Source: Gammaproteobacteria bacterium (GTDB lineage: Bacteria > Pseudomonadota > Gammaproteobacteria > Thiohalomonadales > Thiohalomonadaceae). Taken from it: DNA of 39,505 bases. Made by a program: the position numbers and the translations under genes. Every line of letters begins with the position of its first letter. Position 1 is the first letter of the stretch. This document shows positions 2,264 to 33,964 of the stretch, in pieces. Location of the stretch: assembly GCA_026196275.1 (NCBI GenBank), contig JAPHTQ010000009.1, positions 70,092 to 109,596 of the forward strand. Reading direction: 5' to 3'. The notes under the pieces were generated by a model. It made no database searches and was not told where the DNA came from. It saw nothing but the letters and a program-made list of their open reading frames with translations.

Positions 2264-2337
2264 GGGCGCAGTGATCCGGGAGGGGAGTTTGGGTGGTTTT
2301 CCTTGTTATCGCGCACTATCTGTAAAGACGAATCGCC

Positions 2338-2616
2338 ATGAATGCAGTGGTTGTAACACTCCTTCTCATCGCTGTTGTCGCCGTGGCTTTCTATCTGCGG
2401 CTGAAGTTCTCAATTTCTAACAGTGTCAATACTGTCAAAAAAGCGCCCGAGGTTATCCCTGAAGATTCGGTGCAGTGTTTCTCCTGTGGCATGGTGGTCC
2501 CGCGCGAAAAGGCGCTGGAAAAAAAGGGACGCTATTTTTGTGGGGTGAAACGCAATGACCGTGATGGCAATCCCATCGGTGAGAAGTCAGGAAAAAACGA
2601 GAGTGAGGTGCCGTAA
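2338..2616 (+). CDS. PP0621-family small membrane protein with a Cys-pair motif
   Basis: This 92-residue protein has one N-terminal membrane segment (about residues 3-19, VVVTLLLIAVVAVAFYL) and a short cytoplasmic tail. The tail carries two cysteine pairs or singles, CFSCG at about 43-47 and YFCG at about 67-70, in the arrangement seen in PP0621-family proteins, whose tail resembles a small zinc-ribbon. The function of the family is not known to me. Length fits the family. It is followed by the VOC gene on the same strand with about 70 bases between, so cotranscription is possible. Confidence 0.7.
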   Translation: MNAVVVTLLLIAVVAVAFYLRLKFSISNSVNTVKKAPEVIPEDSVQCFSCGMVVPREKALEKKGRYFCGVKRNDRDGNPIGEKSGKNESEVP

Positions 2617-2689
2617 AACCCCATCCTTCGTGTCGCATCCCGCGATATGCGACACCGACAGACCAGATTGTTACCCGTGGTGAGTGCGA

Positions 2690-3100
2690 ATGAAACCCAG
2701 AATCAGCATGATTACGCTCGGTGTGCAGGACCTGGACAGATCGGTCCGCTTTTACGAACAAGGCCTCGGCTTGCCACGAATGGAGTCAGCGCCGGGAGTT
2801 GCCTTCTTTACCCTCAACGGTTGCTGGCTGGGGCTTTACGGGCGAGAGTCCCTTGCGAATGATGTGGGTGTTTCGCCTGAGGGTCGTGGTTTTCCCGGTT
2901 TTACCATCGCGCACAATGTCGAATCAGAGCAGGCGGTTGACGAGGTTATGGCGCAGGCTGTTTTGGCGGGCGCGCAAATTATGACCCCGGCGCAGAAGGT
3001 TTTCTGGGGTGGCTATGCAGGCTATTTTTCCGATCCGGACGGCTATCTTTGGGAGATCGCCTATAATCCTCTTTTCTGGGTTGGTCCAAGAGATGAGTAG
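2690..3100 (+). CDS. VOC (glyoxalase/bleomycin-resistance) family protein
   Basis: This 136-residue protein has the paired beta-alpha-beta-beta-beta modules of the vicinal oxygen chelate superfamily. The start ITLGVQDLDRSVRFYEQGLG is the classic first module, and the end YFSDPDGYLWEIAYNP is the classic last strand with the metal-ligand Glu (YLWEIAYNP). Members bind a metal and act on small molecules, or bind drugs; substrate cannot be told from sequence. I use the ATG at 2690; a GTG two codons earlier is also open. A stem-loop follows the stop codon. Confidence 0.85.
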   Translation: MKPRISMITLGVQDLDRSVRFYEQGLGLPRMESAPGVAFFTLNGCWLGLYGRESLANDVGVSPEGRGFPGFTIAHNVESEQAVDEVMAQAVLAGAQIMTPAQKVFWGGYAGYFSDPDGYLWEIAYNPLFWVGPRDE

Positions 3101-3115
3101 GGGCCGGCTCTGAGT

Positions 3116-3150
3116 GTCGGCAACCCGACTACTTCCCCGGTAGTGCCGAC
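3116..3150. other. Nested stem-loop between the VOC and hydrolase genes
   Basis: GTCGGC at 3116-3121 pairs with GCCGAC at 3145-3150, and inside it ACTAC (3128-3132) pairs with GTAGT (3140-3144). No T-run follows on the plus strand, so it is not a standard intrinsic terminator; it may be an RNA structure in the message or a small repeat. Confidence 0.35.
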
Positions 3151-3199
3151 TGATCAGCGACATATTCTCAAGCTACACCACCACCTTCAGGAGGCATCT

Positions 3200-4054
3200 A
3201 TGTTGAAAAAGATTTTGCTGATCGGCCTTGCCGCCGTGACCGGCTTGCTGGTCCAGGGTGTGAGTGCCGCTGAAACGAAGGTGATCTGGCATGGTCACGC
3301 GACTTTCGAGGTGGTAACGCCCAAGGGCAAAGTGCTGCTGATCGATCCCTGGCTCAATAATCCGAAGAATCCCCAGGGCGGTGAGGACAAGGATGTCGTG
3401 GCCAGCCTGAAGCGGGCCGACTATGTCCTCATCACCCATGCGCATACCGACCACATCGGTGATGCCACGGCGATCGCGAAGAAGACCGGCGCACAACTTG
3501 TCGCCATGCCCGAACTGGGTCGGCAGATGGTGAAATTGAAGGCCTTTCCGCAGCAGCAGTTCGGTTTCAGCTCGATGATGAACATGGGCGGTACCCTGAC
3601 CCTCGCCGACGGTGAGGTGAAGGTCTCGATGACCGATGCCAAGCACTCAAGCGGGATGGAGAATCCGTTTGCCGCTGACAGCGAAAAGGCACCGGCCGTG
3701 GTCTACGGCGGCAACCCGGCGGGCTTTGTCGTGCGTATCGAAAACGGTCCGACCATCTATCACAGCGGCGACACCGACTATTTCGGTGACATGAAGCTGA
3801 TCGGTGAGCGCTATCGCCCGGATCTGGCGCTGCTGTGTGCCGGCGATCACTTCACCATGGACCCGAAAACGGCGGCCCATGCGGCCAGTGCGGTGGGGGC
3901 GAAGCTCTCCGTGCCGATGCACTGGGGGACCTTTCCGGTACTTGCCCAGAGCATCGAGCCGTTTGTGACGGAGGCAAAGTCGCTAGGGGTGAAGACCCAT
4001 GTGATGGCGCCGGGTGACACCCTGGTCTACCAGGGCACGAAGCTCAAGAAGTAG
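3200..4054 (+). CDS. Exported metallo-beta-lactamase-fold metal-dependent hydrolase
   Basis: This is a 284-residue protein with a Sec signal peptide (MLKKILLIGLAAVTGLLVQG, cleavage near VSAAE), so it likely acts in the periplasm. The mature part carries the metal-binding motif of the metallo-beta-lactamase fold, THAHTDHIGD, preceded by IWHGHATFEV and followed by YHSGDTDYFGD, and ends with a conserved MHWGTF block. This layout is that of the UPF0173/YtkL-type hydrolases, which normally lack a signal peptide; substrate is unknown. The ATG at 3200 is chosen because a strong AGGAGG sits just upstream and the protein then begins at the signal peptide. An upstream in-frame extension to 3143 has no such support. 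Confidence 0.88.
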   Translation: MLKKILLIGLAAVTGLLVQGVSAAETKVIWHGHATFEVVTPKGKVLLIDPWLNNPKNPQGGEDKDVVASLKRADYVLITHAHTDHIGDATAIAKKTGAQLVAMPELGRQMVKLKAFPQQQFGFSSMMNMGGTLTLADGEVKVSMTDAKHSSGMENPFAADSEKAPAVVYGGNPAGFVVRIENGPTIYHSGDTDYFGDMKLIGERYRPDLALLCAGDHFTMDPKTAAHAASAVGAKLSVPMHWGTFPVLAQSIEPFVTEAKSLGVKTHVMAPGDTLVYQGTKLKK

Positions 4055-4061
4055 ACTCTGT

Positions 4062-4084
4062 GGGCCCGGAACCCTTGCGGGCCC
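4062..4084. terminator. GC-rich hairpin between convergent genes
   Basis: GGGCCCG (4062-4068) pairs perfectly with CGGGCCC (4078-4084) over a 9-base loop. It lies between the convergent hydrolase and leuA genes, followed on the plus strand by CTTACTCC, a weak T-run. It could end transcripts from both sides. Confidence 0.5.
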
Positions 4085-4120
4085 CTTACTCCTCATCCAG
4101 CCTGATGCGGACCCGACCGT

Positions 4121-5785
4121 TCAGGCGGCAGCCTTGAGCGCGGCGCGGTTGAGCGCCGCCATCACCGCCATCAATGAGGCACTCACCGTATCGTGGTCCA
4201 GTGCCGCGCCACTGACGCGTTTGCCGTCGATGTTGAGCTGCACGTAGGCGGCGGCCTCGGCATCGGTGCCTTCGCCGATGGCGTGCTCGGCGTAGTCGAC
4301 GACCACCACCTGCTGGCCGCTGTGCTGCTGCCAGGCGTCGATGAAGGCGGAGAGAGCGCCTTCGCCCGCGCCGCGGATCACCGTCTCAACGGTGCCCTCA
4401 TTGATGCGCGCCTCGACGCTGTCGACACTGCCGCTGCGGTCGAGACGGTAGCCGTTCAGCCGCGGGCTGTCGGCGGTGGCGATGAAGTTCTCCACAAAGA
4501 GGCGGTGGATAGTTTCGCTGTCGACCTCGCCGCGCTGCTGCTCACTCTGTCGCTGTACCAGTTGTGCCAGCTCCACCTGCATCCAGCGGGGGATGGCGAG
4601 GCCGTAATCACGTTCCAGTACGAAGGCGACGCCCCCCTTGCCCGACTGGCTGTTGACCCGGATCACCGCCTGAAAGTCACGCCCCAGATCCTGTGGATCG
4701 ATGGGCAGGTAGGCCACCTGCCACGGCTCGTCCGGCTGCTGTTTTTGCAGGCACTTGCGGATCGCATCCTGATGCGAGCCGGAGAAGGCGGTGTAGACCA
4801 GCTCGCCGATCCAGGGGTGGCGCGGGTGGACCGGCAGCCCGGTGCACTGGGTGTAGGTCTGGATGATCTCGTCGGGGTTGGCCAGATCCAGCTCCGGGTC
4901 GACCCCCTGGCTGTAGAGGTTCATCGCCAGGGTGACGATATCCATGTTGCCGGTGCGCTCGCCGTTGCCCATCAGCGTCCCCTCGACCCGATCGGCGCCG
5001 GCCAGGAGCCCCAGCTCGGCGGCGGCCACCGCCGTGCCGCGGTCATTGTGGGTGTGCAGCGAGACGATGATGCTCTCGCGCCGCGCCACATGGCTGCAGA
5101 ACCACTCCACCTGATCGGCAAAGACGTTGGGGGTGGCGCTCTCGACGGTGGCCGGCAGATTGATGATGCAGGGCTTTTCGGGGCTCGGCTGCCATACGGC
5201 GGTTACCGCATCGACCACCTCGACCGCGTAGTCCATCTCGGTCTGGCTGTAGCTCTCCGGGGAGTACTGGAAGGTCCAATCGGTCTCGGGGTAGCGGGCC
5301 GCCTCGGCCCTGACCATCTCCGCACCCCGCACGGCGATCTGCTTGATCCCCTCACGGTCCATGGCGAAGACCCGCTCGCGCTGCACCGTGGAGGTGGAGT
5401 TGTAGACGTGGACGATGGCCCGCCCCACCCCCTTGAGCGCCTCGAAGGTGCGCTCGATGAGGTGCTGACGTGCCTGCACCAGCACCTGCACCGTGACATC
5501 CTCGGGGATCTGCTCCTCCTCGATGAGCCAGCGCACGAAGTCGTAGTCGTGCTGGCTGGCGGAGGGGAAGCCCACCTCGATCTGCTTGAAACCGAGCCTG
5601 ACCAACAGCGCCCACATCCTGCGCTTCTGCGCGACGTTCATCGGCTCGAGCAGCGCCTGATTGCCGTCCCGCAGGTCGACGCTGGCCCAGATCGGGGCCT
5701 TGTCGAGGATGCGGTTCGGCCACTGGCGGTTCGCCAGCTGGATAGTCGGGGCGGGGTGGTACTTGCGGTGATCAAACGGTTTCAT
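4121..5785 (-). CDS. leuA: 2-isopropylmalate synthase, long (LeuA type 2) form
   Basis: This 554-residue enzyme condenses acetyl-CoA with 2-ketoisovalerate to 2-isopropylmalate, the committed step of leucine synthesis. The N-terminal TIM barrel has the family signature SVDLRDGNQAL (Asp40 with Arg39) and the metal ligands in SLHTHNDRG (His244, His246). The C-terminal third is the LeuA allosteric dimer domain where leucine normally binds. Length and the start MKPFDHRKYHP match the long form known from actinobacteria and yeast rather than the short E. coli type. A ribosome site (GGAG) lies about 8 bases before the ATG. It is divergent from an Lrp/AsnC-type regulator, and the shared region carries a 13-base inverted repeat, which suggests leucine-linked control. 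Confidence 0.97.
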   Translation of the reverse strand: MKPFDHRKYHPAPTIQLANRQWPNRILDKAPIWASVDLRDGNQALLEPMNVAQKRRMWALLVRLGFKQIEVGFPSASQHDYDFVRWLIEEEQIPEDVTVQVLVQARQHLIERTFEALKGVGRAIVHVYNSTSTVQRERVFAMDREGIKQIAVRGAEMVRAEAARYPETDWTFQYSPESYSQTEMDYAVEVVDAVTAVWQPSPEKPCIINLPATVESATPNVFADQVEWFCSHVARRESIIVSLHTHNDRGTAVAAAELGLLAGADRVEGTLMGNGERTGNMDIVTLAMNLYSQGVDPELDLANPDEIIQTYTQCTGLPVHPRHPWIGELVYTAFSGSHQDAIRKCLQKQQPDEPWQVAYLPIDPQDLGRDFQAVIRVNSQSGKGGVAFVLERDYGLAIPRWMQVELAQLVQRQSEQQRGEVDSETIHRLFVENFIATADSPRLNGYRLDRSGSVDSVEARINEGTVETVIRGAGEGALSAFIDAWQQHSGQQVVVVDYAEHAIGEGTDAEAAAYVQLNIDGKRVSGAALDHDTVSASLMAVMAALNRAALKAAA

Positions 5786-5814
5786 GCTACAGCTCCTGCT
5801 GGATCTGGAAATCT

Positions 5815-5916
5815 CACCACAGAGGCACAGAGGTCGCAGAGGTAAAAACCTTTACAAGTAGCAGGGAGTGCGCTGGCTGGTTATTCACCCTCCGTGCTCT
5901 TTGTGTCTCTGTGGTG
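5815..5916. repeat. Foldback repeat, CACCACAGAG family, copy 1
   Basis: The left arm at 5815-5842 begins CACCACAGAGGCACAGAG and the right arm at 5888-5916 ends GTCTCTGTGGTG; the arms are imperfect inverted copies. It sits just upstream of the leuA start. Related arms occur at 6251-6285, 6783-6936, 21081-21150 and 25216-25334. Confidence 0.75.
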
Positions 5917-6043
5917 AATCATCAATTTGCTTTTCCTCACCCTTGTGGGGCGGTTGCCTGGCCGGCCCTTGTGAGGCCGGCCTCCGGCTGGCTTGCCCGC
6001 TTGTGGCGGACAATTGAAAGATTAGTGCATAAGGCGGGAAATG

Positions 6044-6085
6044 TTATTGCGAATTTAGTGGCATTTTTCTAAAAATACGCAATAA
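6044..6085. promoter_or_regulatory. Palindromic operator candidate between leuA and the Lrp-type gene
   Basis: TTATTGCGAATTT (6044-6056) and AAATACGCAATAA (6073-6085) are inverted copies with one mismatch in 13, in an AT-rich stretch of an otherwise GC-rich region. The site lies between two divergent genes, one of which encodes an Lrp/AsnC regulator, a family that binds such degenerate palindromes. That this protein binds here is inference. Confidence 0.5.
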
Positions 6086-6163
6086 TGTTGCTAATAAATT
6101 CGATATTTAATCAGATTGTGCCCGAGTGAGATTAAGAGGCGCATGATTCGGTCAGGGTTGATT

Positions 6164-6239
6164 GTCGGATTACGCCGCCGAGCGGCTAATCCGACCTACA
6201 ACGCCCCTCACCCCAACCCCTCTCCCTGAGGGAGAGGGG
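6164..6239. repeat. Two short palindromic intergenic repeats
   Basis: GTCGGATTA (6164-6172) pairs with TAATCCGAC (6187-6195), a REP-like palindrome type widely seen between genes in proteobacteria. It is followed by a perfect 11-base stem, CCCCTCTCCCT (6217-6227) with AGGGAGAGGGG (6229-6239). The second could also act as a transcript end, but neither strand has a T-run after it. Confidence 0.6.
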
Positions 6240-6250
6240 CTATCGAAATC

Positions 6251-6285
6251 TTTGCGACCTCTGCGCCTCTGCGATCTCTGCGTTG
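6251..6285. repeat. Single arm of the CACCACAGAG repeat family
   Basis: TTTGCGACCTCTGCGCCTCT and its continuation match the right arms of the foldback repeat family, but no left arm is seen close by. It lies directly before the regulator gene, whose far side carries a complete copy (6783-6936). Confidence 0.55.
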
Positions 6286-6314
6286 ATAAGGGTTTTTACT
6301 AATCAGGAACAGCC

Positions 6315-6776
6315 ATGGAACTCGACCGCTACGACCGCCGCATCCTTGAAGCGCTGCAAAAGGACGGCCGCATCAGCAATCAGGAGCTGGCCGAGCGTAT
6401 CGGTCTCTCCCCCTCGCCCTGCCTGCGCCGGGTGCGGGCGCTGGAGGAGTCCGGCCTCATCACCGGCTACCGTGCGCTGCTGGATGCAAAGAAGCTCGGC
6501 CTCGACCTGATGGCGCTCATCCACATCTCGATGGACCGCCACACGCCGGAGCGCTTCGCTAACTTCGAGGAGCGGGTCGCCGCGCTGCCGGAGGTGCTGG
6601 AGTGTCTGTTGGTCACCGGTCAGGACGCCGACTATCAGCTCAAGGTCGTGGTGGCCGACATGGACGCCTTCCAGACCCTGCTGTTGGAGAAGATCACCCG
6701 CATCGAAGGGGTCAGCGGGGTGCACTCCAGCTTCGTCCTGCGCCGGGTGGTGGACAAAACCGCGTTGCCTGTATGA
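6315..6776 (+). CDS. Lrp/AsnC family transcriptional regulator
   Basis: This is a 153-residue protein of the standard feast/famine length. The N-terminal winged helix-turn-helix (about residues 5-55) includes DRRILEALQKDGRISNQEL and LSPSPCLRRVRALEESGLI, the recognition part. The C-terminal RAM/ligand domain begins near GLDLMALIHISM and contains GQDADYQLKVVV, where amino acids bind in this family. It probably senses an amino acid and controls itself and the divergent leuA; that target is inference from position and from the palindrome at 6044-6085. Ribosome site AGGAA precedes the ATG. Length is too short for Lrp with extra domains, and it could be a regulator of another amino-acid pathway. 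Confidence 0.93.
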   Translation: MELDRYDRRILEALQKDGRISNQELAERIGLSPSPCLRRVRALEESGLITGYRALLDAKKLGLDLMALIHISMDRHTPERFANFEERVAALPEVLECLLVTGQDADYQLKVVVADMDAFQTLLLEKITRIEGVSGVHSSFVLRRVVDKTALPV

Positions 6777-6782
6777 ATGGCT

Positions 6783-6936
6783 CACCGCAGAGGCGCAGAG
6801 TACGCAAAGATTATTAAAAGTGGTAAACCATCAGAATCGACGTCGCTCGCCTCAGGTATAGTTCGAGCAGCTATGCCCGGTCTTGTCTGAGGGATAGGAC
6901 AAGAAAAACCTTTGCGTACTTTGCGCCTTTGCGGTG
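6783..6936. repeat. Foldback repeat, CACCGCAGAG family, copy 2
   Basis: The left arm at 6783-6809 starts CACCGCAGAGGCGCAGAG and the right arm at 6910-6936 ends GCGCCTTTGCGGTG. The two 27-base arms differ at only three positions and enclose about 100 unrelated bases. It fills the gap between the convergent regulator and ABC permease genes. Confidence 0.75.
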
Positions 6937-6943
6937 AAAACAA

Positions 6944-8149
6944 TCATTCATGTCGCAGGGCGTCGATGGGGTCGAGCCGTGCCGCCTTGCGTGCGGGGAA
7001 GTAGCCAAAGGCGACGCCTATCGCCATGGAGAAGAGGAGGGCGAAGAGCACCATGCCCGGCTCCACCACGTAGGGGATCGTCAGTGCGCCGGCGATGAAC
7101 CAGGAGGCGGTGAGCGCCAAAGCGATCCCGACAATGCCGCCGAAGGAGGAGAGTACCACCGCCTCGACCAGGAACTGGGTGAGCACATCACGCTCCAGCG
7201 CACCGATGGCCAGGCGGATACCGATCTCGCGGGTACGCTCGGTGACCGACACCAGCATGATGTTCATGATGCCGATGCCGCCCACCAGCAGGCTCACCGC
7301 TGCCACTGCACCGAGCAGGGCGGTGAGGATGCGGGTGGTACCGGTAAGGGTGTCGGTGATCTCGCGCAGGTCCATGACGTTGAAGTCGTCCTCCTGGCCG
7401 GGGGCGATGCGGCGGCGCTCGCGCATCAGCTGCTCCACATCGCGCACCACCGCCGTGGTGGAGACCCCGTCACGGGCGGAGATATGGATGCGGCTGACGT
7501 CGCGGTTGCCGGCGATACGGCGCCAGAATGCGCGCATCGGCATGACAATGGTGTCGTCCTGATCGGTGCCGCCGGCGGATTGGCCCTTGCTCCTGAGCAG
7601 GCCGATCACCTCGCAGGAGAGGCTCTTGATGCGGATCGCGCTGCCCACCGGCGGCTGCGCCCCGAACAGTTTCTGGCGCACGGTTTCGCCGATCACGCAG
7701 ACGCTCTTGCCGCCGCGCAGTTCGCTGTCGCTAAAGTAGCGGCCGCTGGCCAGCTCCCAGTTGCCGACGGCGAAGTAGCGGTTGTCGCTGCCGGTAACGG
7801 AAGTGTTCCAGTTGGCATTGCCGTAGATCGTAGTCATCGAGCGCGCAGCGATGGGTGCCACCTCTGCCACCCCCGGCACCTCCATGGCAATGGCCTCGGC
7901 GTCGGCCATCTCGAACGGCGCCGCCTGGCCGCGCTGGCCGTGGCCGAAGCGCTGGCCGACGCGCATGAACAGCAGGTTGCTGCCGAGGCTCTCGATCTGC
8001 TGTTTCACCTGCTGGGTGGCACCGCTGCCGAGGTTGACCATGATGATCACCGAGGCGACACCGATGACGATCCCCAGGGTGGTGAGGAAGGAGCGCATGA
8101 CGTTGCGCCGGATCGATCGCAGCGCCAGCAACAGGGCGTTCCACCACAT
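6944..8149 (-). CDS. MacB-type ABC transporter permease (FtsX/MacB family)
   Basis: This 401-residue inner-membrane protein begins with the family start WWNALLLALRSIRRNVMRSF, has a first membrane segment near 20-42 (LTTLGIVIGVASVIIMVNLG), a large periplasmic MacB-PCD domain, and three C-terminal membrane segments (about 280-310, 330-355, 365-385) with the conserved GGIGIMNIMLVSVTERTREI loop that contacts the ATPase. It corresponds to the permease half of MacB, here encoded apart from the ATPase. Its ATG overlaps the ATPase stop codon (TGATG at 8147-8151), so the two are translationally coupled. With the adaptor gene upstream it would form a tripartite efflux pump for a macrolide, peptide or lipid-like substrate; an outer-membrane channel gene is not in the window. 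Confidence 0.93.
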   Translation of the reverse strand: MWWNALLLALRSIRRNVMRSFLTTLGIVIGVASVIIMVNLGSGATQQVKQQIESLGSNLLFMRVGQRFGHGQRGQAAPFEMADAEAIAMEVPGVAEVAPIAARSMTTIYGNANWNTSVTGSDNRYFAVGNWELASGRYFSDSELRGGKSVCVIGETVRQKLFGAQPPVGSAIRIKSLSCEVIGLLRSKGQSAGGTDQDDTIVMPMRAFWRRIAGNRDVSRIHISARDGVSTTAVVRDVEQLMRERRRIAPGQEDDFNVMDLREITDTLTGTTRILTALLGAVAAVSLLVGGIGIMNIMLVSVTERTREIGIRLAIGALERDVLTQFLVEAVVLSSFGGIVGIALALTASWFIAGALTIPYVVEPGMVLFALLFSMAIGVAFGYFPARKAARLDPIDALRHE

Positions 8150-8862
8150 CAGTCGTGCTCTCCGACCGGCGCGCCGCTTTGCCGATCATCGTCCACAAGC
8201 CCGTCGACGAACTGGATGGTGCGCCGGGCAAAGGCGGCGATCTCCGCCTCGTGGGTGACCATGACGATGGTGATCCCCAGCTCGCGGTTGAAGCGGCTCA
8301 ACAGCTCCATGATCTCGTGGCTGCGGGCGGTGTCGAGGTTGCCGGTGGGCTCATCGGCGAGCAGCACCGAGGGGCGGGTGACGATGGCGCGGGCGATGGC
8401 GACACGCTGCTGCTGGCCGCCTGAGAGTTCGCCCTGAGTATGGTGCTCCCAGCCCTCAAGCCCGACCGCCTGCAGCGCCTCGCGGCTGAGGCGATGGCGC
8501 TCCCCGGCGGGGGTGCCGCGGTAGATCAGCGGCAGTTCCACATTCTCTTGCGCCGAGGTGCGGTTAAGCAGATTGAAGCCCTGGAAGACAAAGCCCAGGT
8601 AGTGGCGTCGCAGCAGGGCCCGCTGGTTGCGGCTCAGGCCGCCCACATCGACCCCCTGAAAGTGAAAGCTGCCGCTGGTCGGGGTATCCAGGCAGCCGAT
8701 GATGTTCATGCAGGTGGACTTGCCCGAGCCGCTGGGGCCCATCACCGCAACGAACTCGCCCGGTTCGATGGTCAGATCGACACCGCGCAGCGCCTGCATC
8801 GCCGCTGCGCCCCGGCCGTAGACCTTGCTCACCTGCGCCAGTCGGATCAGCGGTTCAGCCAT
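8149..8862 (-). CDS. MacB-type ABC transporter ATP-binding protein
   Basis: This is a 237-residue ATPase of the LolD/MacB class. Motifs in order: Walker A GPSGSGKS (42-49), Q-loop FVFQGFNLL (91-99), signature LSGGQQQR (146-153), Walker B VLLADEP (166-172) with catalytic Glu171, and the switch His in VTHEAEIA. The ATG at 8862 is chosen because the protein then starts MAEPLIRLAQVSKVYG, the usual place, and because that ATG overlaps the stop codon of the adaptor gene (TGATG at 8860-8864). The frame stays open for 46 more codons upstream, but those codons lie over the adaptor gene. It would power the permease encoded next. Confidence 0.95.
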   Translation of the reverse strand: MAEPLIRLAQVSKVYGRGAAAMQALRGVDLTIEPGEFVAVMGPSGSGKSTCMNIIGCLDTPTSGSFHFQGVDVGGLSRNQRALLRRHYLGFVFQGFNLLNRTSAQENVELPLIYRGTPAGERHRLSREALQAVGLEGWEHHTQGELSGGQQQRVAIARAIVTRPSVLLADEPTGNLDTARSHEIMELLSRFNRELGITIVMVTHEAEIAAFARRTIQFVDGLVDDDRQSGAPVGEHD

Positions 8863-10127
8863 CAATTGCCACCGCTGAGGCTGTCGGTGATGAGCGCCAT
8901 GCCCGGTTCCAGCGCACCCTCTAACACCTCGGTGAGCAGACCGTTGCTGGCGCCGATGGTGATCTCGACGGCCTGTGGCTTCTCCTCCTGCAGCACCCAT
9001 ACCGTGCGCTGTGGCCCCTGTGCCGCGGCAGGAGTGCCTCCGCCGCGGCGGGGTGGACGGAACATGCGACTCATCAATGAGCCACCGCCCTGTGTGGAGT
9101 CCTGCGTCTCGACCGGCGGGCTATAGCGGAAGGCGGCGTTGGAGATGAGCAGGGCGTTTTCGATCCGACGGGTACGGATATCGGCGGTGGCGGTCATGCC
9201 GGGCAGCAACAGCTGATCAGGGTTCTCCACCGCCAGCACGGTCTCGTAGGTAACCACCCCGTCGATCGTTTGCGGGGCGTGGCGGATCTGGGTAATGGTG
9301 GCGCTGAAGCTGGTGTCGGGGTGGGCATCGACGCTGAACCTGGCCTCCATCCCCTCGCGGATCTGACCGATGTCCGCCTCGTCAACGGCGACGATGAGTT
9401 CCATGCGGGTCAGATCCTCGGCCAACGTAAAGAGCTCCGGGGTCTGCAACGAGGCGGCCACGGTCTGCCCCGGCTCCACTTTGCGGTTAAGGACGATACC
9501 GTTGATCGGCGAGCGGATGGTGGCCTTCTCCAGATTGGTGCGATGGCCATCGAGCACTGCCTCGGCGATCGCCACCTGCGCCCTGGCGCTGGCCACCCCT
9601 GCCTTGGCCCGTTCGTAGGCGGCGACAGCGGCATCCACGTCGTTGGCCGAGCACATCTGCCGTTTGGCCAGCTCGCGACAGCGCTGCAACGACACCCGCT
9701 TCTCCTGTTCGGTGGCCTGCGCCTCCCGCACCTTCGCCTGTGCCGACTGCAGGGAGGCGCGCGCCTCCACGATACGACTCTCAAGGGTGGAGGTGTCGAG
9801 CCGGGCCAGCACACTGCCGACCTCGACCCGATCGTTGAAGTCCACCTCGATGGCGTCAATGGTGCCGGAGAGCTCGCTGCCGACCACCACCTGGTTGACC
9901 GGCTGCAGGGTGCCGGTGGCGCTGACGTGGATAGTCAGATCGCCTCGTTCCACCGCAGTGGTCTGATAACTCACCTCTCCCCCATTCTCGGAGGAGAAGG
10001 GGTTAAAGAGCAGACCAATGAGCAGCAGGGCCACGAGCAGTGCAGCGCGTAACAGCCACTTTTTGCCTCCGGTGCGTGGCTTATCCAGCCCCAGGGTCTG
10101 ACTGATCTCGCTTTCATTTGTTGCCAT
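8862..10127 (-). CDS. MacA-type periplasmic adaptor (membrane fusion protein)
   Basis: This 421-residue protein has an N-terminal membrane anchor (about 25-45, WLLRAALLVALLLIGLLF) after a short cytoplasmic tail. It then has the biotinyl-lipoyl/HlyD module (TLQPVNQVVVGSELSGTIDA), a long alpha-hairpin coiled coil (about 110-185, ARASLQSAQAKVREAQATEQ and on), the second lipoyl half (IRSPINGIVLNRKVEPGQTV) and beta-barrel domains. This order is typical of MacA-like adaptors that link a MacB transporter to a TolC-type channel. It is the first gene of the three-gene operon. A Ser/Gly/Arg/Pro-rich insert near residues 345-375 interrupts the membrane-proximal domain, as in some MacA relatives. Confidence 0.93.
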   Translation of the reverse strand: MATNESEISQTLGLDKPRTGGKKWLLRAALLVALLLIGLLFNPFSSENGGEVSYQTTAVERGDLTIHVSATGTLQPVNQVVVGSELSGTIDAIEVDFNDRVEVGSVLARLDTSTLESRIVEARASLQSAQAKVREAQATEQEKRVSLQRCRELAKRQMCSANDVDAAVAAYERAKAGVASARAQVAIAEAVLDGHRTNLEKATIRSPINGIVLNRKVEPGQTVAASLQTPELFTLAEDLTRMELIVAVDEADIGQIREGMEARFSVDAHPDTSFSATITQIRHAPQTIDGVVTYETVLAVENPDQLLLPGMTATADIRTRRIENALLISNAAFRYSPPVETQDSTQGGGSLMSRMFRPPRRGGGTPAAAQGPQRTVWVLQEEKPQAVEITIGASNGLLTEVLEGALEPGMALITDSLSGGN

Positions 10128-10157
10128 TGTGCTTCCTTCGTCGATGTCGTAACGGCG

Positions 10158-10425
10158 CTAGTGGTCCATGCGGGAAATAATATCAGCCTCAGAGCCCCGC
10201 CAATGAGTCAAGGCAAGGCACGCTGCGCAGGGAATGGCAGGCCCCTTTCCAAGCAGCGTAACGCCGCATTGGCTCATTGGCGGGACTCCCTTCGGGCCGT
10301 TCCACAGGGCTCATCGGCGGTGTTGCACTCGCTTGAATTAGCTCGCTAGTCCTGCGCTCCTGCGCCTTGCCGATGAGCCTTGTGGAACGGCTGAGGCTGA
10401 CATTATTTCCCGCATGGACCACTAG
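10158..10425. repeat. 268-bp foldback element with 35-bp terminal inverted repeats
   Basis: The ends are inverted copies with one mismatch in 35: the left end (10158-10192) begins CTAGTGGTCCATGCGGG and the right end (10391-10425) ends CCCGCATGGACCACTAG. Inside are two more inverted repeats: CCCGCCAATGAG (10196-) with CTCATTGGCGGG (-10284), and GCCGTTCCACA (10296-) with TGTGGAACGGC (-10391). The left inner part is related in sequence to the core of the element at 15071-15230. No transposase is encoded; short open frames across it look spurious. It is probably a MITE-like or other non-autonomous repeat. No clear target duplication is seen. Confidence 0.75.
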
Positions 10426-10427
10426 GG

Positions 10428-11750
10428 TTAATCCGCTTCTGCCGTTGGCAGGCTCAGCGTTACACAGAGTCCGCCACCGGTGCGATTGTGGGCGTTCACG
10501 GTGCCGCCGTGGGCGGCCATCACCTGTCCGGTGATCGCCAGTCCCAGGCCGTAGCCGCCGCTGTCGCGGTCGCGCGCCTCGCCGATGCGGGTAAAGGGCT
10601 CGAACATCCTCTCCAGGGCCGTCTCCGGCACCCCTTCGCCGCGGTCACAGACCTGCAGCGTGAGCATGCCGCCACTGCCCGCCAGCGATACCTCCACCGT
10701 TGTGTCCTCTGCGGTGTAGCGTACCGCGTTGCGTACCACGTTTTCGATCGCCGCACGCAGCAATACGGGATCGCCTTTTACCATAAAGTCCTGGGACATC
10801 TCGAGCGTCACACGGCGTCCGTGGGCCTGTGCCTCAAAATCAGCATCACTGATGATGGCATGCAGCAACTCGCCCAGACTCAGCTCGCGCCGCTCCAGCA
10901 GCGACTGGCCCGACTCCAGCCGCGAGAGCGAGAGCAGGTTGGCGAGCAGCAACTCCAGCTCGTCCGCCTCCTTCTCCACCCGTGCCAGTGATTTAGCCGG
11001 CTCCGCACTGCGTTCGGCCAGCTCCAGGGCGATGCGCAGTCGCGCCAGCGGCGAGCGCAGCTCATGGGAGACATCGCGCAGCAGTCGACGCTGGCTCTCC
11101 AGCATCTCGCGCAGACGCTCGGCCATGATATCGAAATCGCGCCCCAGCGCGGCGACCTCGTCACCGCCGCGCCCCCCGACCCGTATGTTGAGATCACCGT
11201 CGGCCAGTGTTTGTGCGGCATGACGCAGGCGCCGTATCGGCCGGCTCAGCATCGCCGCCAGACCCAGACTCACCAGGGCACTGATCAGCAGGGCGAGGAT
11301 GAGACGTGTTGTCGGTGAGAGGGTGTGCAGACGTCCTGTATCGACCAGCGTGGCAAGAAAAAGTTTATTCCCCTCCAGCGCCAGCGGCGCCAGCACCAGG
11401 TAGCGGCCGCGTTCAAGACGCTGGCTACCCGCCTCGATGGGGACAAGCTGTGGCAGGCGTTGGTGCAACGCCGGGGGTAAGTGCTGGCGAAACAGCGGTT
11501 GACCCGCACCGTCGAGCAGCAGCACCGGCAGCCCTTCGTCACGGCGTATGCCGCGCAGCCAGCGGCGCAGTGCGTCATTATCGCCTTCCCGTAACAGAGC
11601 GGTGGCGGTTTCGGCATGCGCACCGAGCCAGTGTTCACTGCGCTCCAGCTGCCGATCGCCCAGCCCGCGCTCGCCGAAATACATCGCCGCGCCGAGCAGG
11701 ATCAGTGTCAGCCAGAAGGCAATGAAGATCTTGCCGAATAGAGAACCCAT
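10428..11750 (-). CDS. CpxA-like sensor histidine kinase
   Basis: This 440-residue inner-membrane kinase has a first membrane segment (about 7-26), a periplasmic sensor domain of about 120 residues, a second segment (about 148-168), a HAMP linker (170-222) and the DHp helix with phospho-acceptor His229 (RDVSHELRSPLAR). The ATPase domain follows with its N box (ENVVRNAVRY, about 336-345), G1 (CDRGEGVP), F box (MFEPFTRI) and G2 (GYGLGLAI). Layout and neighbour genes match CpxA. It starts 5 bases after the response-regulator stop codon, so the pair is one operon. The sensor domain does not give the ligand; in Cpx systems the signal is misfolded envelope protein, held off by CpxP. Confidence 0.92.
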   Translation of the reverse strand: MGSLFGKIFIAFWLTLILLGAAMYFGERGLGDRQLERSEHWLGAHAETATALLREGDNDALRRWLRGIRRDEGLPVLLLDGAGQPLFRQHLPPALHQRLPQLVPIEAGSQRLERGRYLVLAPLALEGNKLFLATLVDTGRLHTLSPTTRLILALLISALVSLGLAAMLSRPIRRLRHAAQTLADGDLNIRVGGRGGDEVAALGRDFDIMAERLREMLESQRRLLRDVSHELRSPLARLRIALELAERSAEPAKSLARVEKEADELELLLANLLSLSRLESGQSLLERRELSLGELLHAIISDADFEAQAHGRRVTLEMSQDFMVKGDPVLLRAAIENVVRNAVRYTAEDTTVEVSLAGSGGMLTLQVCDRGEGVPETALERMFEPFTRIGEARDRDSGGYGLGLAITGQVMAAHGGTVNAHNRTGGGLCVTLSLPTAEAD

Positions 11751-11755
11751 CGCCC

Positions 11756-12433
11756 TCAGCCTCGGGTGTACTGGTAGCCGGTGCCGCGCAACGTGTGGAT
11801 CCGCGGGCTACCATCGGCCAGCGGGCCGAGCTTGCGCCGGATCTGTGCCATGTGGGTCTCGATTCGCCGGTCATAGGCCTGCAGCGGCCGCCCCAGCCCT
11901 TCGCTGGCCAGCTGCTCCTTGCTCACCACGGTGCCGGCATGGGCCACCAGCAACTGCAGCAGATTGAACTCGGCACCGGTCAGCTCCACCGGTTCTCCGC
12001 CGACCGTCACGCTGCGGTTGCCCATATCCAGTGTCAGATCACCTACTCTGAGTTGCTCGGCGGGGGCATGGCTGCCGTGGCGGCGCAGCAGTGCCCGCAG
12101 TCGTGCTACCAGTACCCGGGGACTGCAGGGTTTGGCCACATACTCATCGGCACCCAGCTCGAGTCCGACCACGGTGTCGGTATCCTCGCCGCGGGCGGTG
12201 AGCATCAGGATCGGAGCACTGACCGCCGGCTTGATCCGCTTGAGCACATCAAAGCCGCTCATCCCGGGCATCATCACATCGAGGATGATCGCATCCCACT
12301 CCCCGGCGAGGGCACGCGCGGCACCGCTCTCGCCATCGTGCAGGCTCTCCACCGTAAAGCCCTCGCCCTCCAGGTATTCACCCAGCAACTCGCACAGCGC
12401 CCGGTCATCATCGATCAACAGTATCTGCGGCAT
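11756..12433 (-). CDS. CpxR-like response regulator (OmpR/PhoB type)
   Basis: This 225-residue regulator has a receiver domain with the acidic pocket Asp8-Asp10, phospho-acceptor Asp52 (ILDVMMPG), Thr79 and Lys101 (VAKPCS), then an OmpR-type winged helix with EFNLLQLLVAHAGTVVSKEQL and the C-terminal HTLRGTGYQYTRG. The receiver start closely resembles CpxR (DDDRALCELLGEYLEGEGF). I use the ATG at 12433, which gives a normal MPQILLIDDD start 9 bases after AAGGGG; the ATG at 12439 is a near alternative. Longer upstream frames are unlikely because they cross the promoter region. It likely activates the divergent CpxP/Spy-type gene and its own operon through the site at 12501-12515. Confidence 0.92.
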   Translation of the reverse strand: MPQILLIDDDRALCELLGEYLEGEGFTVESLHDGESGAARALAGEWDAIILDVMMPGMSGFDVLKRIKPAVSAPILMLTARGEDTDTVVGLELGADEYVAKPCSPRVLVARLRALLRRHGSHAPAEQLRVGDLTLDMGNRSVTVGGEPVELTGAEFNLLQLLVAHAGTVVSKEQLASEGLGRPLQAYDRRIETHMAQIRRKLGPLADGSPRIHTLRGTGYQYTRG

Positions 12434-28816: not shown

Positions 28817-29101
28817 TCAATTCCTTTCGTTTTCTTTGTTGTGCCAAACCCGCAATATGTAGATCACTTCATCGGCGATGAGGTAACGCACCGTATAGTT
28901 GCTGATATAAAGATCGCGGATTTGTTCCGGGTTAGGCGCCTTCAAAACGGGTAGACCAATTTCTGGAAATTGCTTTAGCTTATCGATGCCCTCTTGTAGA
29001 TCAATCGCTATTCGGCGTGCTGCGAAAGGGCTTTTAACCTCCACAAATTCCACCACTCTTTGGAGGACATCGATAGACTCCGGTGAGTATCTTACCCTCA
29101 T
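28817..29101 (-). CDS. ParE/RelE-type toxin
   Basis: This 94-residue toxin has the ParE/RelE fold order: SIDVLQRVVEFVEVKSPFAA, ARRIAIDLQEGIDKLKQFPE, then NYTVRYLIADEVIYILRVWH near the end. PEIGLPV and YTVRYLI are typical of the ParE group, whose members poison DNA gyrase; RelE members cut mRNA. Which target applies here is not certain. Its ATG overlaps the antitoxin stop codon (ATGA at 29098-29101), the usual coupling. It is probably active, with full length and no frameshift. Confidence 0.88.
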   Translation of the reverse strand: MRVRYSPESIDVLQRVVEFVEVKSPFAARRIAIDLQEGIDKLKQFPEIGLPVLKAPNPEQIRDLYISNYTVRYLIADEVIYILRVWHNKENERN

Positions 29102-29364
29102 GATTCCGGTGGCGATTTACGATCAGCGCTACCCCAGCTATTCAGCCAGGCATTCACATCCTCTTCATCAATGGATTTACCCGCCTTTATGGATTCAAGC
29201 GCTTCGAGGGTGTCCTGCCACCTCGAATCTTCCATAGACTGCCTCGCGATAAACTCCTTAATTGCTTGATTTATAAGGTAGTTCTTGCTCCTATCAAGCT
29301 TTTTCGAAAGAGCCTCCAGGGGAATTTCCATATCGTCAGTGATTCGAATACTCGTAATGCCCAT
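29098..29364 (-). CDS. Ribbon-helix-helix antitoxin (CopG/ParD-like)
   Basis: This 88-residue antitoxin has an N-terminal ribbon-helix-helix DNA-binding domain (ITSIRITDDMEIPLEALSKK, then LDRSKNYLINQAIKEFIARQ) and an acidic C-terminal part (SIDEEDVNAWLNSW) that would wrap the toxin. The ATG at 29364 is used because GAGG lies 8 bases upstream; a GTG at 29373 is also open. It should repress its own promoter, and an 11-base palindrome lies 24 bases upstream. Confidence 0.88.
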   Translation of the reverse strand: MGITSIRITDDMEIPLEALSKKLDRSKNYLINQAIKEFIARQSMEDSRWQDTLEALESIKAGKSIDEEDVNAWLNSWGSADRKSPPES

Positions 29365-29387
29365 GAACCCCACCTCGGTGTAGTGAT

Positions 29388-29739: not shown

Positions 29740-30225
29740 TTAACTGGTGATGCCTAACACGGCTTCAACGTTAGCGATTACTGTTCGTGTTAATGGGTAT
29801 TTTTGACAGAGCTCATGGAAGGTGAGGTTGAGACTTCCTTTCTTATGAACGACTGCATGCCGAGCCTTCATAAGTGAGTCCCAAGCTGCGTGCTCTGGAG
29901 AATTCTCGATATTGTCCATAAACGATACCTTGTATGTTCCGTCAAAACGGTTAAGAGTTTCGCTTATCTTGGATAGGTCCGGGCTCCTAAATTTTTGGGA
30001 AAGAGTTTTCTTTATATAGTTGGCGGCATGTGCATCGCCACATATGTCTGCTCTCCTAAAAAATACTGACTCTAAATAATCCTCATACTCCGCGACTATT
30101 AAGACAACCAATCCGGCAACTATGTATGTTTCAAGTTCTTTGTCTCGAATGTTGGTCGGATCCAGCGACTGAACGTGCTGCTTGCATATTTCTATTGCGT
30201 TATCTATCCGTTGATAAATATTCAT
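29740..30225 (-). CDS. HEPN-domain protein (predicted ribonuclease or its partner)
   Basis: This 161-residue all-helical protein carries the HEPN active-site motif Rx4H: Arg122-HAVV-His127 (SLMKARHAVVHKKGSLN). It also has conserved acidic residues in the first helices (LIVAEYEDYLESVFFRRADI), as in RiboL-PSP/MAE_28990-type HEPN proteins. HEPN domains with this motif are metal-independent RNases in many toxin and defence systems. Its ATG overlaps the DUF262 stop codon (ATGA at 30222-30225), so the two act together. The gene is AT-rich compared with the core genes in the window. Confidence 0.8.
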   Translation of the reverse strand: MNIYQRIDNAIEICKQHVQSLDPTNIRDKELETYIVAGLVVLIVAEYEDYLESVFFRRADICGDAHAANYIKKTLSQKFRSPDLSKISETLNRFDGTYKVSFMDNIENSPEHAAWDSLMKARHAVVHKKGSLNLTFHELCQKYPLTRTVIANVEAVLGITS

Positions 30226-31307
30226 TGCACCAAATACTGTTTCGCAAGGCTCATTCTTAGCTCTACAATAGACTCGTCGGCCGTGGCTCCACGTACACCC
30301 TTGATGAAATCTTGGTCGCTCTTTAGGTTAGAGAATCTTTGATTTAGGTCTTCTGGGAATCCGTTCAAGGCCAACACTGTAAAGGTCGAATCAAATACAG
30401 CTACGTTTAATCCTGACCATATGTGGAATGGTTTGTCGCCGAGATGCTCTACAATATTGTCGCAAGTTGTTTTGAATAAATTGTCAAATTTTTCGGCTTT
30501 TTTGAGGCTGATATGTTGATTTTCCCGCATGTAGTTAGACATAAAGTCTTTTATGGGTCGCTCATAATTATGACCATTCTCAAAAAACGAAAAGAATCTA
30601 AGGATCAATTCAACATCCTTCTGACGCTTATGAGGGATGTCGCTGCCAAATATTTTTCTCCAGTTGTCGTATTGATTTAGTGTACACAACAGATTGTTGA
30701 ATTCACCGTGATAGACGCAATTCCTTATCTCTTGGCCAACTAATTGTGTCCCGCCAGTATTTAGTCGCTCAAAAATGTGGTAGACGCTAGTGTTTCCATT
30801 TGGGGTTAGTTGTTTGACAACAAATGCACGAAGAACGCTATCATTTAGCTTATTGAATGCGGCCTGATCTGATTCTTCTAGCTCGGCGTATGTCTTGTTG
30901 TAATATGGGCTTTTTTCATTTAATCCTGTAAGCCTGAAGACCTTTCTTCGTCCTTTTTGATCTGGTTCACCAAAATACCCATCAAAGAAATACACGACCG
31001 ACATCAGTCGTTGTTGTCCGTCAATTACAAGTTGTTCATTGTTTACCTCGTCAGTAAACAAGAATATTGCTGGGACAGGCAAGCCAAGCAGGAACGACTC
31101 AATGAGGCGACTAGCTTGTTTTATGGTCCATACAAAGTTTCGCTGAAATCCTGGGATAGTCATTGAGCCTTTTCTAAACTTTGAAACTAGACCTTCTAAA
31201 GTGAAGTCTGCAGGATAAGTGATTACTTCATAGGTGGAAGGGGTAGATTCTAAATCGAGCTCTTCGCTCTCTATTTCTTCTAGTCCTTCGTTGTAGTCGG
31301 ATGTCAT
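30222..31307 (-). CDS. DUF262 domain protein (GmrSD N-terminal-like)
   Basis: This 361-residue protein has the DUF262 (ParB-like) core: LVSKFRKGSMTIPGFQRNFV near residue 50, SFLLGLPVPAIFLF, and EQLVIDGQQRLMSVVYFF with the DGQQR motif (96-100). DUF262 forms the first half of GmrSD, an enzyme that uses nucleotides to cut modified phage DNA; the second half (DUF1524 HNH nuclease) is absent here, and the overlapping HEPN gene takes its place. So a sensor/switch role that controls the HEPN protein is likely (inference). An acidic N-terminal tail (EGLEEIESEELDLE) precedes the domain. The gene is AT-rich. Confidence 0.88.
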   Translation of the reverse strand: MTSDYNEGLEEIESEELDLESTPSTYEVITYPADFTLEGLVSKFRKGSMTIPGFQRNFVWTIKQASRLIESFLLGLPVPAIFLFTDEVNNEQLVIDGQQRLMSVVYFFDGYFGEPDQKGRRKVFRLTGLNEKSPYYNKTYAELEESDQAAFNKLNDSVLRAFVVKQLTPNGNTSVYHIFERLNTGGTQLVGQEIRNCVYHGEFNNLLCTLNQYDNWRKIFGSDIPHKRQKDVELILRFFSFFENGHNYERPIKDFMSNYMRENQHISLKKAEKFDNLFKTTCDNIVEHLGDKPFHIWSGLNVAVFDSTFTVLALNGFPEDLNQRFSNLKSDQDFIKGVRGATADESIVELRMSLAKQYLVQ

Positions 31308-31422: not shown

Positions 31423-32250
31423 TTAGCATGGTAAATGTGGGTCAGGCCAAATTGGCTCGTTAACCTCAAGCGAATCTGGGTCAAGAGCCAAGTAACTGTT
31501 TCTTTCATAAGGTAGTAGTGTTCTCCCTCCAAACGAAAGTAGGCCATGCTCACTCGAAGGCCAGTACACATTGAGCGGCATTGTGTTTAGGTGCGTGTAC
31601 ACCTTCCATACTTGTGGGGCTCCTCCAATAGAATGTATGTCCTTGTTTCTGATAAATTCAACTAATGTCTCAAACGGCTCCATTTCCATTCCTGGTACTT
31701 TAACTCTATTTCTCTCCTTTAGTTTGGTATAAACACTATTTGTTGCTTTAGCAACCTCGTCACCTATAAATGCGAAATATTTATTTCCGCCACCTTTTTT
31801 TCGGTGCCTTGATGTTTGTCGTAGTCGAAATTCATCAGCCTCAGATTCAAAATATAGAGTCCATATTTTAAATTCCTGAAATCTCCACGAGTATCCGCAA
31901 AGCATAAATCTGACAGTTGCAGGGTCAGGTTTTTCCTGCCCCACAGGTAAATTATCAATACTCTTCCACATAGCATTGAATATTCTTACTACATATCCTT
32001 TTAAATCAACAAGGTCATATGCCCTTGATTTTATCTTTGGATGCATTTTTACGGCAGATTGCAATTGTAGCATTAATGGGTATGCTTCTTCAGTTAGTCC
32101 AGCGAATGCAATGACGACATCGCCGCGACCTAGATCCAAAATTTTTGTGCCAATATCCCAATTTTGACCGCCACTCAATCGTGAATCACCTGCTACGTAC
32201 AGTTCCTTGGTTTTTCCCTGATGCCTGACCCATGCTGCTATGAGTGTCAT
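31423..32250 (-). CDS. Proteasome-beta-like Ntn hydrolase (peptidase T1-type), undescribed subgroup
   Basis: This 275-residue protein starts MTLIAAWV from the ATG at 32250, so Met removal would expose Thr as N-terminal nucleophile, as in HslV and proteasome beta subunits. The remaining active-site pattern is present: Asp22 in YVAGDSRLSGG (HslV AGD; proteasome Asp17), Lys36 in GTKILDL (Lys33), a strand-turn VVIAFAGLTEEAYPLMLQL like the HslV GFAGGTADAF block, FIGDEVAKA at 161-169 in place of GSG, and Asp204/Ser207-GG in NKDIHSIGGAPQVWKVY, matching the RDxxSGG end motif. A GTG start at 32268 is also open but would bury the Thr. It is longer than HslV (about 175) by inserts near 100-155 and a C-terminal extension. 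No HslU/ATPase gene is in the window. Activity and substrate are inference. Confidence 0.78.
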   Translation of the reverse strand: MTLIAAWVRHQGKTKELYVAGDSRLSGGQNWDIGTKILDLGRGDVVIAFAGLTEEAYPLMLQLQSAVKMHPKIKSRAYDLVDLKGYVVRIFNAMWKSIDNLPVGQEKPDPATVRFMLCGYSWRFQEFKIWTLYFESEADEFRLRQTSRHRKKGGGNKYFAFIGDEVAKATNSVYTKLKERNRVKVPGMEMEPFETLVEFIRNKDIHSIGGAPQVWKVYTHLNTMPLNVYWPSSEHGLLSFGGRTLLPYERNSYLALDPDSLEVNEPIWPDPHLPC

Positions 32251-32312
32251 TAATCCTATTGTCCTCACTTATACGCCTAACGGTTCAATTAATGCGACCT
32301 AGTTTTACGTCA

Positions 32313-32448: not shown

Positions 32449-32598
32449 TTAATTTTTACAGCCATTCTTATCGCAGGTGATCCTCTCTGACGTTGTAACC
32501 CAATGGTTTAGGTGGTCATTTGTGTCCGTCCCGCACCCTGTCTTACCGCCTTTTACTCCACTATGAACAACTCCAGTTGGTGTGTGCTTAACAGCCAT
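32449..32598 (-). CDS. 49-residue Cys/His-containing small protein
   Basis: From the ATG at 32598, with a strong AAAGGAGGG upstream, this frame reads MAVKHTPTGVVHSGVKGGKT, then GCGTDTNDHLNHWVTTSERI and TCDKNGCKN. Cys22, Cys42 and Cys47 with His5, His12, His29 and His32 could bind a metal. There is no signal peptide. I do not know a named family, but the clean start and motif-rich sequence argue it is real. It lies upstream of the proteasome-like gene on the same strand, with a long hairpin between, so it might be a substrate, regulator or small partner (inference). Confidence 0.6.
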   Translation of the reverse strand: MAVKHTPTGVVHSGVKGGKTGCGTDTNDHLNHWVTTSERITCDKNGCKN

Positions 32599-32920
32599 TT
32601 TGAATCCCTCCTTTAGGGCTTGTGGTTATAAACCACTATTTTGAACAGCGTCCCAGTGAGCGAGAGCGAACGACTTGAGCTATTTGTCAATCTCGACACT
32701 TTCAATCTTTACTTCGGCTTCTTTAATAAGTTCAGAACATTCTTTGAAAACACCCTCAAGATCTGACCAGAACTCATCGGTTAACTTTAGTTGTTTGCTA
32801 CCACCTGAGTAATATTTGATAAAGCAACCCTGCATACTGTCATGCTGCACTTTGCCGTGGGCGAATGCGTTGCGCCACTCCATTATCTTCTTTAATGAAC
32901 TTTGTAATTTATCGTGAATT

Positions 32921-33963
32921 CAATTTCCAAGTGCAACTCAACAGAGTTGGTTAGAGGGCAAGCTGCGGTAGCATAGGTAGCTTCTCTCACCGACCAAAGT
33001 TTGAGGAGCACCATGTACACACAGCTTACCCAGGAAGAACGATACCAGATCTACGCCTTGATGAAAGCCGGTCACAATCAATCTGAGATAGCCCAGATCA
33101 TTGGGCGCGACAAGTCCACCATTAGCCGTGAGCTTCGTCGCAACAGTGGTCTGCGTGGCTATCGCCCCAAGCAGGCCCAGCGGCTGTCTGTGAAGCGCCG
33201 TCATGACAGTGGCAGCCTCCGCATCACTCCCGAGCATTGGGCGTTAGCAGAGCGCCTGCTGCGCGAGGACTGGAGCCCTGAGCAAGTTAGCTTGTGGCTA
33301 GCAGACGAGAAAGCTATTCACATCTCCCATGAGTGGATTTACCAGTACGTCCTCCAGGACAAATCCCGAGGCGGCGACCTCTACCGCCATCTGCGCTGTC
33401 AGAAGCAGCGTCGTAAGCGCTACGGCAGCTATAGTCGCCGTGGACAGCTCGTAAACCGTGTCAGCATCGATGAGCGACCTGCTGTGGTCGATGCCCGCTT
33501 ACGGTTTGGCGACTGGGAACTCGACACCATTATCGGCAAGGGCCACAAACAGGCTATCGTCTCACTCACCGAGCGAAAATCTCATCCACAAGGTGGAACG
33601 AAAGACCGCTGCCAGCGTTACCAGCGCCATCCTCAGGCTGCTTAAGCCTATTGCTCACCGTGTACACACGCTGACCTCCGATAACGGCAGGGAATTCGCA
33701 GGTCACGAGACAATCGCAAAAGCTCTGGATGCCAAGTTCTTCTTTGCCCATCCTTATGCCTCATGGGAGCGAGGCCTGAACGAGAACACCAACGGCCTCA
33801 TTCGTCAGTACTTCCCGAAACATCGGGACTTTTCAACTATCACTCAGAATGAAGTTACCCGAGTGATGGATAAACTGAATAACCGTCCCCGAAAATGCCT
33901 TGGCATTAAAACACCCAATCAGGTATTTTTCGGGATTAACCCATCCGTTGCACTAGCGAGTTG
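32921..33963 (+). mobile_element. IS30-family insertion sequence, decayed
   Basis: A 1,043-base element lies between two copies of GAATTC (32916-32921 and 33963-33968). Its ends are imperfect inverted repeats, left CAATTTCCAAGTGCAAC and right (reverse complement) CAACTCGCTAGTGCAAC, with AATT or the full GAATTC as target duplication. It encodes an IS30-type transposase with a frameshift, so it is probably no longer active on its own. Confidence 0.8.
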
Positions 33964-33964
33964 A
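33013..33964 (+). pseudogene. IS30-family transposase, frameshifted
   Basis: The frame from the ATG at 33013 gives the N-terminal helix-turn-helix (YQIYALMKAGHNQSEIAQII, then GRDKSTISRELRRN) and the start of the integrase domain (RLRFGDWELDTIIGKGHKQA). Near 33580, after SLTERKS, the reading frame changes. The next frame continues with VERKTAASVTSAILRLLKPI, then LTSDNGREFAGHETIAKALD and WERGLNENTNGLIRQYFPKH to the stop codon. The DD(E) residues lie in both halves: Asp of FGDWELD, Asp of SDNGREF and Glu of NENTNGL. About three residues usual at this point in IS30 proteins are missing, so a small deletion likely caused the shift. Confidence 0.82.

Follow-up and report, generated by a model that had tools for sequence, protein, structure and literature searches.

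What does a proteasome-like protease gene do in an accessory island where no unfoldase gene adjoins it, and does it act together with the DUF262 and HEPN genes beside it? A sequence-only reading of the window (the whole stretch of 39,505 nucleotides analysed here, from contig JAPHTQ010000009.1 of a gammaproteobacterium) had recognized an N-terminal-nucleophile (Ntn) hydrolase laid out like the proteasome and HslV, and had suggested that it might work in a conflict system of a make-up not described before. That reading placed the gene exactly, and every residue it quoted (T2, D22 in AGDSR, K36, FAGLTEEAY and D204-I-H-S207-I-G-G) is at the position it had assigned. The open reading frame is real and lies on the minus strand, reading from 32250 down to 31423 and encoding 275 aa plus a stop (Table 1). 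There is an alternative in-frame GTG six codons upstream of Met-Thr, which would give a product of 281 aa, but the Met-Thr start is favoured because the same start is found in every relative, all 19 of the 19 compared having a Met-Thr N-terminus. The setting is indeed that of an A+T-rich accessory island, with a G+C content of 40-42% around the Ntn gene versus ~60% in the flanks.

Table 1. Features of the Ntn hydrolase locus, in window positions.
Feature	Position	Strand	Evidence or remark
RiboL-PSP HEPN gene, partner of DUF262	29740..30225	minus	PF18735 E 6e-12; same gene order in plasmids
DUF262 (GmrSD_N) gene, PD-T4-2_A / NsnA-like neighbour	30222..31307	minus	Pfam, PADLOC
Proteasome-like Ntn hydrolase gene	31423..32250	minus	275 aa, Met-Thr start
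DIHSIGG	31621..31641	minus	19-relative alignment: GG alone conserved, D204 and S207 not
Asp164 codon, GD at the place of Gly-Ser(129)-Gly in HslV and the sister group	31759..31761	minus	D in 18/19
Gly51 codon (= oxyanion Gly47), FAG	32098..32100	minus	19/19; HslV alignment across FAG-T
Lys36 codon (= Lys33)	32143..32145	minus	19/19
Asp22 codon (= Asp17), DSR motif	32185..32187	minus	19/19
Thr2 codon, predicted nucleophile (= proteasome Thr1)	32245..32247	minus	19/19; residue 2 of model on chain residue 1
attC 3'-half-like sequence GCATTAATTGAACCGTTAGGC, possible remnant	32275..32295	minus	directly upstream of Ntn gene; single copy in genome
49-aa ORF, neighbour	32449..32598	minus	no family match
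Weak attC 5'-half-like sequence TTGACAAATAGCTCAAGTCG	32658-32692	minus	6.5 bits; upstream of 49-aa ORF

Is the encoded protein truly related to the proteasome? The AlphaFold2 model, whose confidence is middling overall (pLDDT 70, pTM 0.72) and low at residues 25-33 and in the C-terminal 50 residues, predicts the alpha-beta-beta-alpha Ntn fold, with elements that follow the proteasome order (S1-S2-S3-S4-H1-H2-S5 to S8-H3-H4-strands). Foldseek places 20S subunits at the top of its matches (E 1.9e-8, probability 1.0), and VIA-align gives Z values of up to 16.4 for 20S subunits and of 15.4 for Anbu, laying residue 2 of the model onto chain residue 1 in archaeal and bacterial 20S beta chains and in Anbu chains. 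Sequence profiles lead to HslV: profile A3 has HslV as its sole match below E 0.1 in the PDB (E 9e-4), while profile A1 retrieves, via positions about 11-77, HslV-sized ORFs in more than 100 of 398 Pseudomonadota genomes, three of these ORFs scoring as HslV well over the NCBIfam cut-off and some of the HslV ORFs inspected having an HslU-like sequence downstream. Five of 18 family members searched singly match PF00227 (best E 9e-4). The window protein by itself has no Pfam match and no PADLOC match, and among NCBIfam models it draws those of HslV only, below threshold (E about 0.1), with no match to the models of 20S beta or Anbu. Membership of HslV proper was rejected, the TIGR03692 score being 12.4 against a cut-off of 157.75 bits, and single-sequence phmmer matches to CD1 were set aside as noise. 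Together with the conservation of Thr, Asp and Lys, the predicted fold bears out the assignment to the proteasome/HslV type: on model and profiles the window protein is a distant proteasome-like Ntn hydrolase, and its gene is a real member of a known enzyme family.

Which parts of the proteasome active site does the protein retain? Relatives were gathered from genomes, plasmids and IMG/VR contigs, and conservation was read from an alignment of 19 relatives from Proteobacteria, Rhodococcus and Lactiplantibacillus, with identities down to about 26-30%. In all 19 of them T2, D22, S23, R24, K36 and G51 are invariant, as is G210. The proposed Thr1/Asp17/Lys33 layout, represented by T2, D22 and K36, is therefore conserved far beyond chance, and Gly47 can be added to it in the form of G51. 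The further match of Asp204 and Ser207 to Asp166 and Ser169 did not survive the alignment: because D204 occurs in only one of the 19 relatives and S207 in nine (T in three and Y in four), this match is a coincidence that arose by chance in a single sequence. Among the window gene and the relatives closest to it, pN is 0.22-0.27 versus a saturated pS of 0.79-0.89, and the sole clearly unsaturated pair (L007-L056) has a dN/dS of 0.08; judged by these values, the family is under strong purifying selection. A sister group (L067-L070, L084, L085), first reached via the weak match L037, has proteins that start MTTL.. and that retain GSG and D-x-x-[ST]-G-G, the alignment being approximate in that region. 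Since the sister group keeps these motifs, it appears that the window family dropped auxiliary residues yet kept the catalytic core; with the Ser129, Asp166 and Ser169 positions altered, activity is therefore not assured. The sister-group gene lies directly downstream of that for an HEPN/Toprim protein in Arcobacter and of an unrelated 519-aa gene in Pseudomonas.

Among proteins of known type, the family profile matches HslV (peptidase T1B; TIGR03692) best by sequence, and HslV has the FAG-T-A motif and the Thr1/Asp17/Lys33/Gly47 layout in common with the window family. However, HslV is about 180 aa long whereas the window protein has 275 aa, the HslV Ser129 position is Asp in the window family, the window family has a C-terminal extension relative to HslV and, among the window genes read, no HslU adjoins the Ntn gene; the host's own HslV is encoded at a separate locus (G000:C24). 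The 20S beta and Anbu structures (1q5q, 6bdf, 5nyw, 5lox) share the predicted fold and the position of the N-terminal Thr, although their identity to the window protein is only 10-15%. The D-x-x-S-G-G motif of 20S beta (Asp166, Ser169) is not conserved in the window family, and neither an alpha subunit gene nor an ATPase gene adjoins the window gene. 20S beta, HslV, Anbu and BPH all form ring or helical oligomers. A 2021 study by Fuchs, Alva and Lupas reported 22 orphan proteasome-like families (DPH, RPC, AAH, PPH, GPH, DAH and others), in which the core residues are the same and neither an AAA+ partner nor an informative gene context is seen (PMC8665760). Like the window family, these are proteasome-like, prokaryotic, small in membership and in some cases phage-borne (PMC8665760), and the window family, compared with them by description only, is probably one of the 22 or a neighbour of theirs. 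The main text of that paper mentions neither integrons nor plasmids. The earlier remark that no described system of this make-up was known consequently holds weakly, as many orphan, ATPase-less proteasome-like families had already been presented together in 2021 (PMC8665760).

How is a gene of this kind carried? Its relatives travel as one-gene cargo on plasmids, in integrons and in phages. Their distribution is sporadic (5 of 398 genomes, host included), and five of the eight plasmid records with a relative are conjugative. In G243 and G1382, which appear Vibrio-like from their repeats, the gene sits within long cassette arrays with attC repeats, and attC sites flank it in two loci of the same Vibrio-like genus that were not used for training (L065, E 9e-7; L066, E 4e-5). 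By locus, an attC is beside the gene in the L059 and L064 arrays and in the training loci L002 and L003; by genus, attC sites adjoin the copies in Comamonas and Sinimarinibacterium, both of which supplied training sequences. No published link between integrons and an Ntn hydrolase was found in the open-access literature searched. Relatives are likewise present on IMG/VR contigs. On one of them (L053, a virus by IMG/VR, 2305-11935) the Ntn gene is inside a phage head-tail operon, in the order major head/protease, others, Ntn, tail terminator (7 bp on), tail proteins and tape measure, and the downstream arrangement in L054 is the same; a tblastn search of the phage collection with the window protein gave no match. 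Several copies are broken: that of a Klebsiella plasmid is interrupted by an IS insertion, there are truncated or frameshifted ones in Rhizobium and related genomes, and an E. coli allele (L012, 10001-10846) has an in-frame stop codon immediately ahead of the EPFE motif. This last allele is found at an identity of at least 99% in 126 of 5426 complete genomes, and in both genomes inspected an allele of its type adjoins an integrase and ypjA. To our knowledge orphan proteasome-like proteins are otherwise known merely as sequence clusters without a function, and a lifestyle as mobile single-gene cargo is unusually clear here for proteins of that kind. Carriage on integrons and plasmids and within a phage structural operon speaks for a self-sufficient activity, and the mobility of the gene hints at a possible benefit in host-phage-plasmid conflict.

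Does the window gene nevertheless act with the genes next to it? Pfam confirmed both the DUF262 and the HEPN neighbour, and the 49-aa ORF is present, without a match. DUF262 plus a PF18735 HEPN constitutes the anti-phage system PD-T4-2 (PMC10952713; PMC9519451), in which a DUF262 type A protein is followed by the HEPN protein, as downstream of the Ntn gene, but which does not include an Ntn gene. In PADLOC the DUF262 protein matches NsnA (Menshen, E 3e-64) above PD-T4-2_A (E 4e-54), and the HEPN protein has no match to the model of the second PD-T4-2 protein. It could be argued that all three genes belong to one conflict system, with the protease switching the DUF262-HEPN effector on or holding it back, as they share strand and order, with 115 bp between the Ntn and DUF262 genes and a 4-bp overlap between DUF262 and HEPN, and as the sister-group gene of Arcobacter has its HEPN/Toprim neighbour directly upstream. 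Against this, each of the five plasmid DUF262 homologues examined is followed immediately by a HEPN-sized gene (in four cases annotated as HEPN) and no Ntn relative is nearby, DUF262 or a RiboL-PSP HEPN occurs at none of 32 Ntn loci, and PD-T4-2 is known as a pair (PMC10952713), so we judge a three-gene system to be very improbable. Because the pair occurs without the Ntn gene and the Ntn gene without the pair, DUF262-HEPN is, to judge from these gene neighbourhoods, a self-contained PD-T4-2-like unit separate from the Ntn gene. Their adjacency is island co-residence with no shared system; the conflict system suggested at first is not supported, and the reading of the island is corrected to one in which the pair is a defence unit of its own. 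Co-transcription of the Ntn gene with the pair in this host is possible, given the common strand and the 115-bp gap. Regarding an unfoldase, none adjoins the Ntn gene among the window genes read and none was seen among the Pfam-scanned neighbours in a sample of loci, so that this part of the original picture stands. The survey of homologues revealed no shared partner: the only recurrent neighbours across 29 Ntn loci are near-identical island pairs, insertion elements and integron/plasmid housekeeping genes. The neighbours named by Pfam in the sampled loci include DUF6602, AbiTii, OLD-like AAA/TOPRIM and HEPN_Toprim_N. As neighbour domains were scanned in a sample of loci, the lack of an unfoldase may not extend to every one of them.

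If the gene stands alone, must its product be a protease, or active at all? Connectase, a monomer of proteasome-like fold, provides the precedent of a protein ligase (PMC8665760), and a ligase or other amide-transfer enzyme would suit an orphan gene without an unfoldase, the family-specific C-terminal extension and the changes at the auxiliary Ser129/Asp166/Ser169 positions. The model elements show no clear counterpart, however, of the helical insertion that connectase has between S3 and S4, and we regard this reading as unlikely. A catalytically dead protein with a structural or binding role would fit an active site that is partial outside the core triad, but is hardly to be expected, for such a protein would not retain exactly Thr2, Asp22, Lys36 and Gly51, which are invariant across Proteobacteria, Rhodococcus and Lactiplantibacillus. 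There is also the possibility, which we entertain with some doubt, that the gene by itself makes up an anti-phage or counter-defence module, its product acting on a protein of phage or host. Its sporadic occurrence, its carriage by conjugative plasmids, integrons and phages, the broken copies and the defence-type genes sometimes near it (AbiTii, OLD-like TOPRIM, HEPN_Toprim) are in keeping with such a role, although little can be concluded from a shared place in a defence island, and PADLOC has no model for the Ntn protein.

We consider it likely that the product of the window gene is a proteasome-like Ntn hydrolase that works alone, with no dedicated unfoldase, and that the gene is carried as mobile one-gene cargo. 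How might such an enzyme function? Methionine aminopeptidase would remove Met1, Thr at position 2 permitting, and free the amino group of Thr2, so that no propeptide processing would be needed. By analogy with the chemistry of the proteasome family, Thr2 would then attack an amide bond as the N-terminal nucleophile, and conservation and the model would have Lys36 and Asp22 tune it and Gly51 sit in the oxyanion hole. The protein may act as a homo-oligomer or a monomer, without a dedicated unfoldase, and for want of one its substrate would most likely be peptides, an already unfolded protein or one specific protein. A more pointed version, in which a lone mobile threonine hydrolase of integrons, plasmids and phage late operons hits one specific protein target in phage-host or plasmid-host conflict, is speculative and in our view rather doubtful, but if it is true, a protease (or ligase) of proteasome type would serve on its own, without any unfoldase, as a weapon or shield.

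Could the window copy itself be an integron cassette? Its stop codon lies within a TGCTAAC motif, and half-site-like sequences lie upstream of the gene and of the 49-aa ORF (Table 1). No credible match to a complete attC was obtained in the window with covariance model R1, and none by regex scan; a present-day cassette thus has no support from these scans, the half-site-like sequences being too short to claim. No sequence like the window half-site is found on host contig C71 (L078, G000:C71, 9518-15874), which carries an intact integron integrase, IntI, and then a run of small same-strand ORFs whose attC scores are weak. Elsewhere in the window, a ParE toxin (PF05016, E 2e-11) is encoded at 28817-29373 (-), overlapped by the gene of a ribbon-helix-helix-like antitoxin, and a transposase with HTH_38, probably a frameshifted one of IS30 type, occupies two overlapping frames at 33001-33964 (+).
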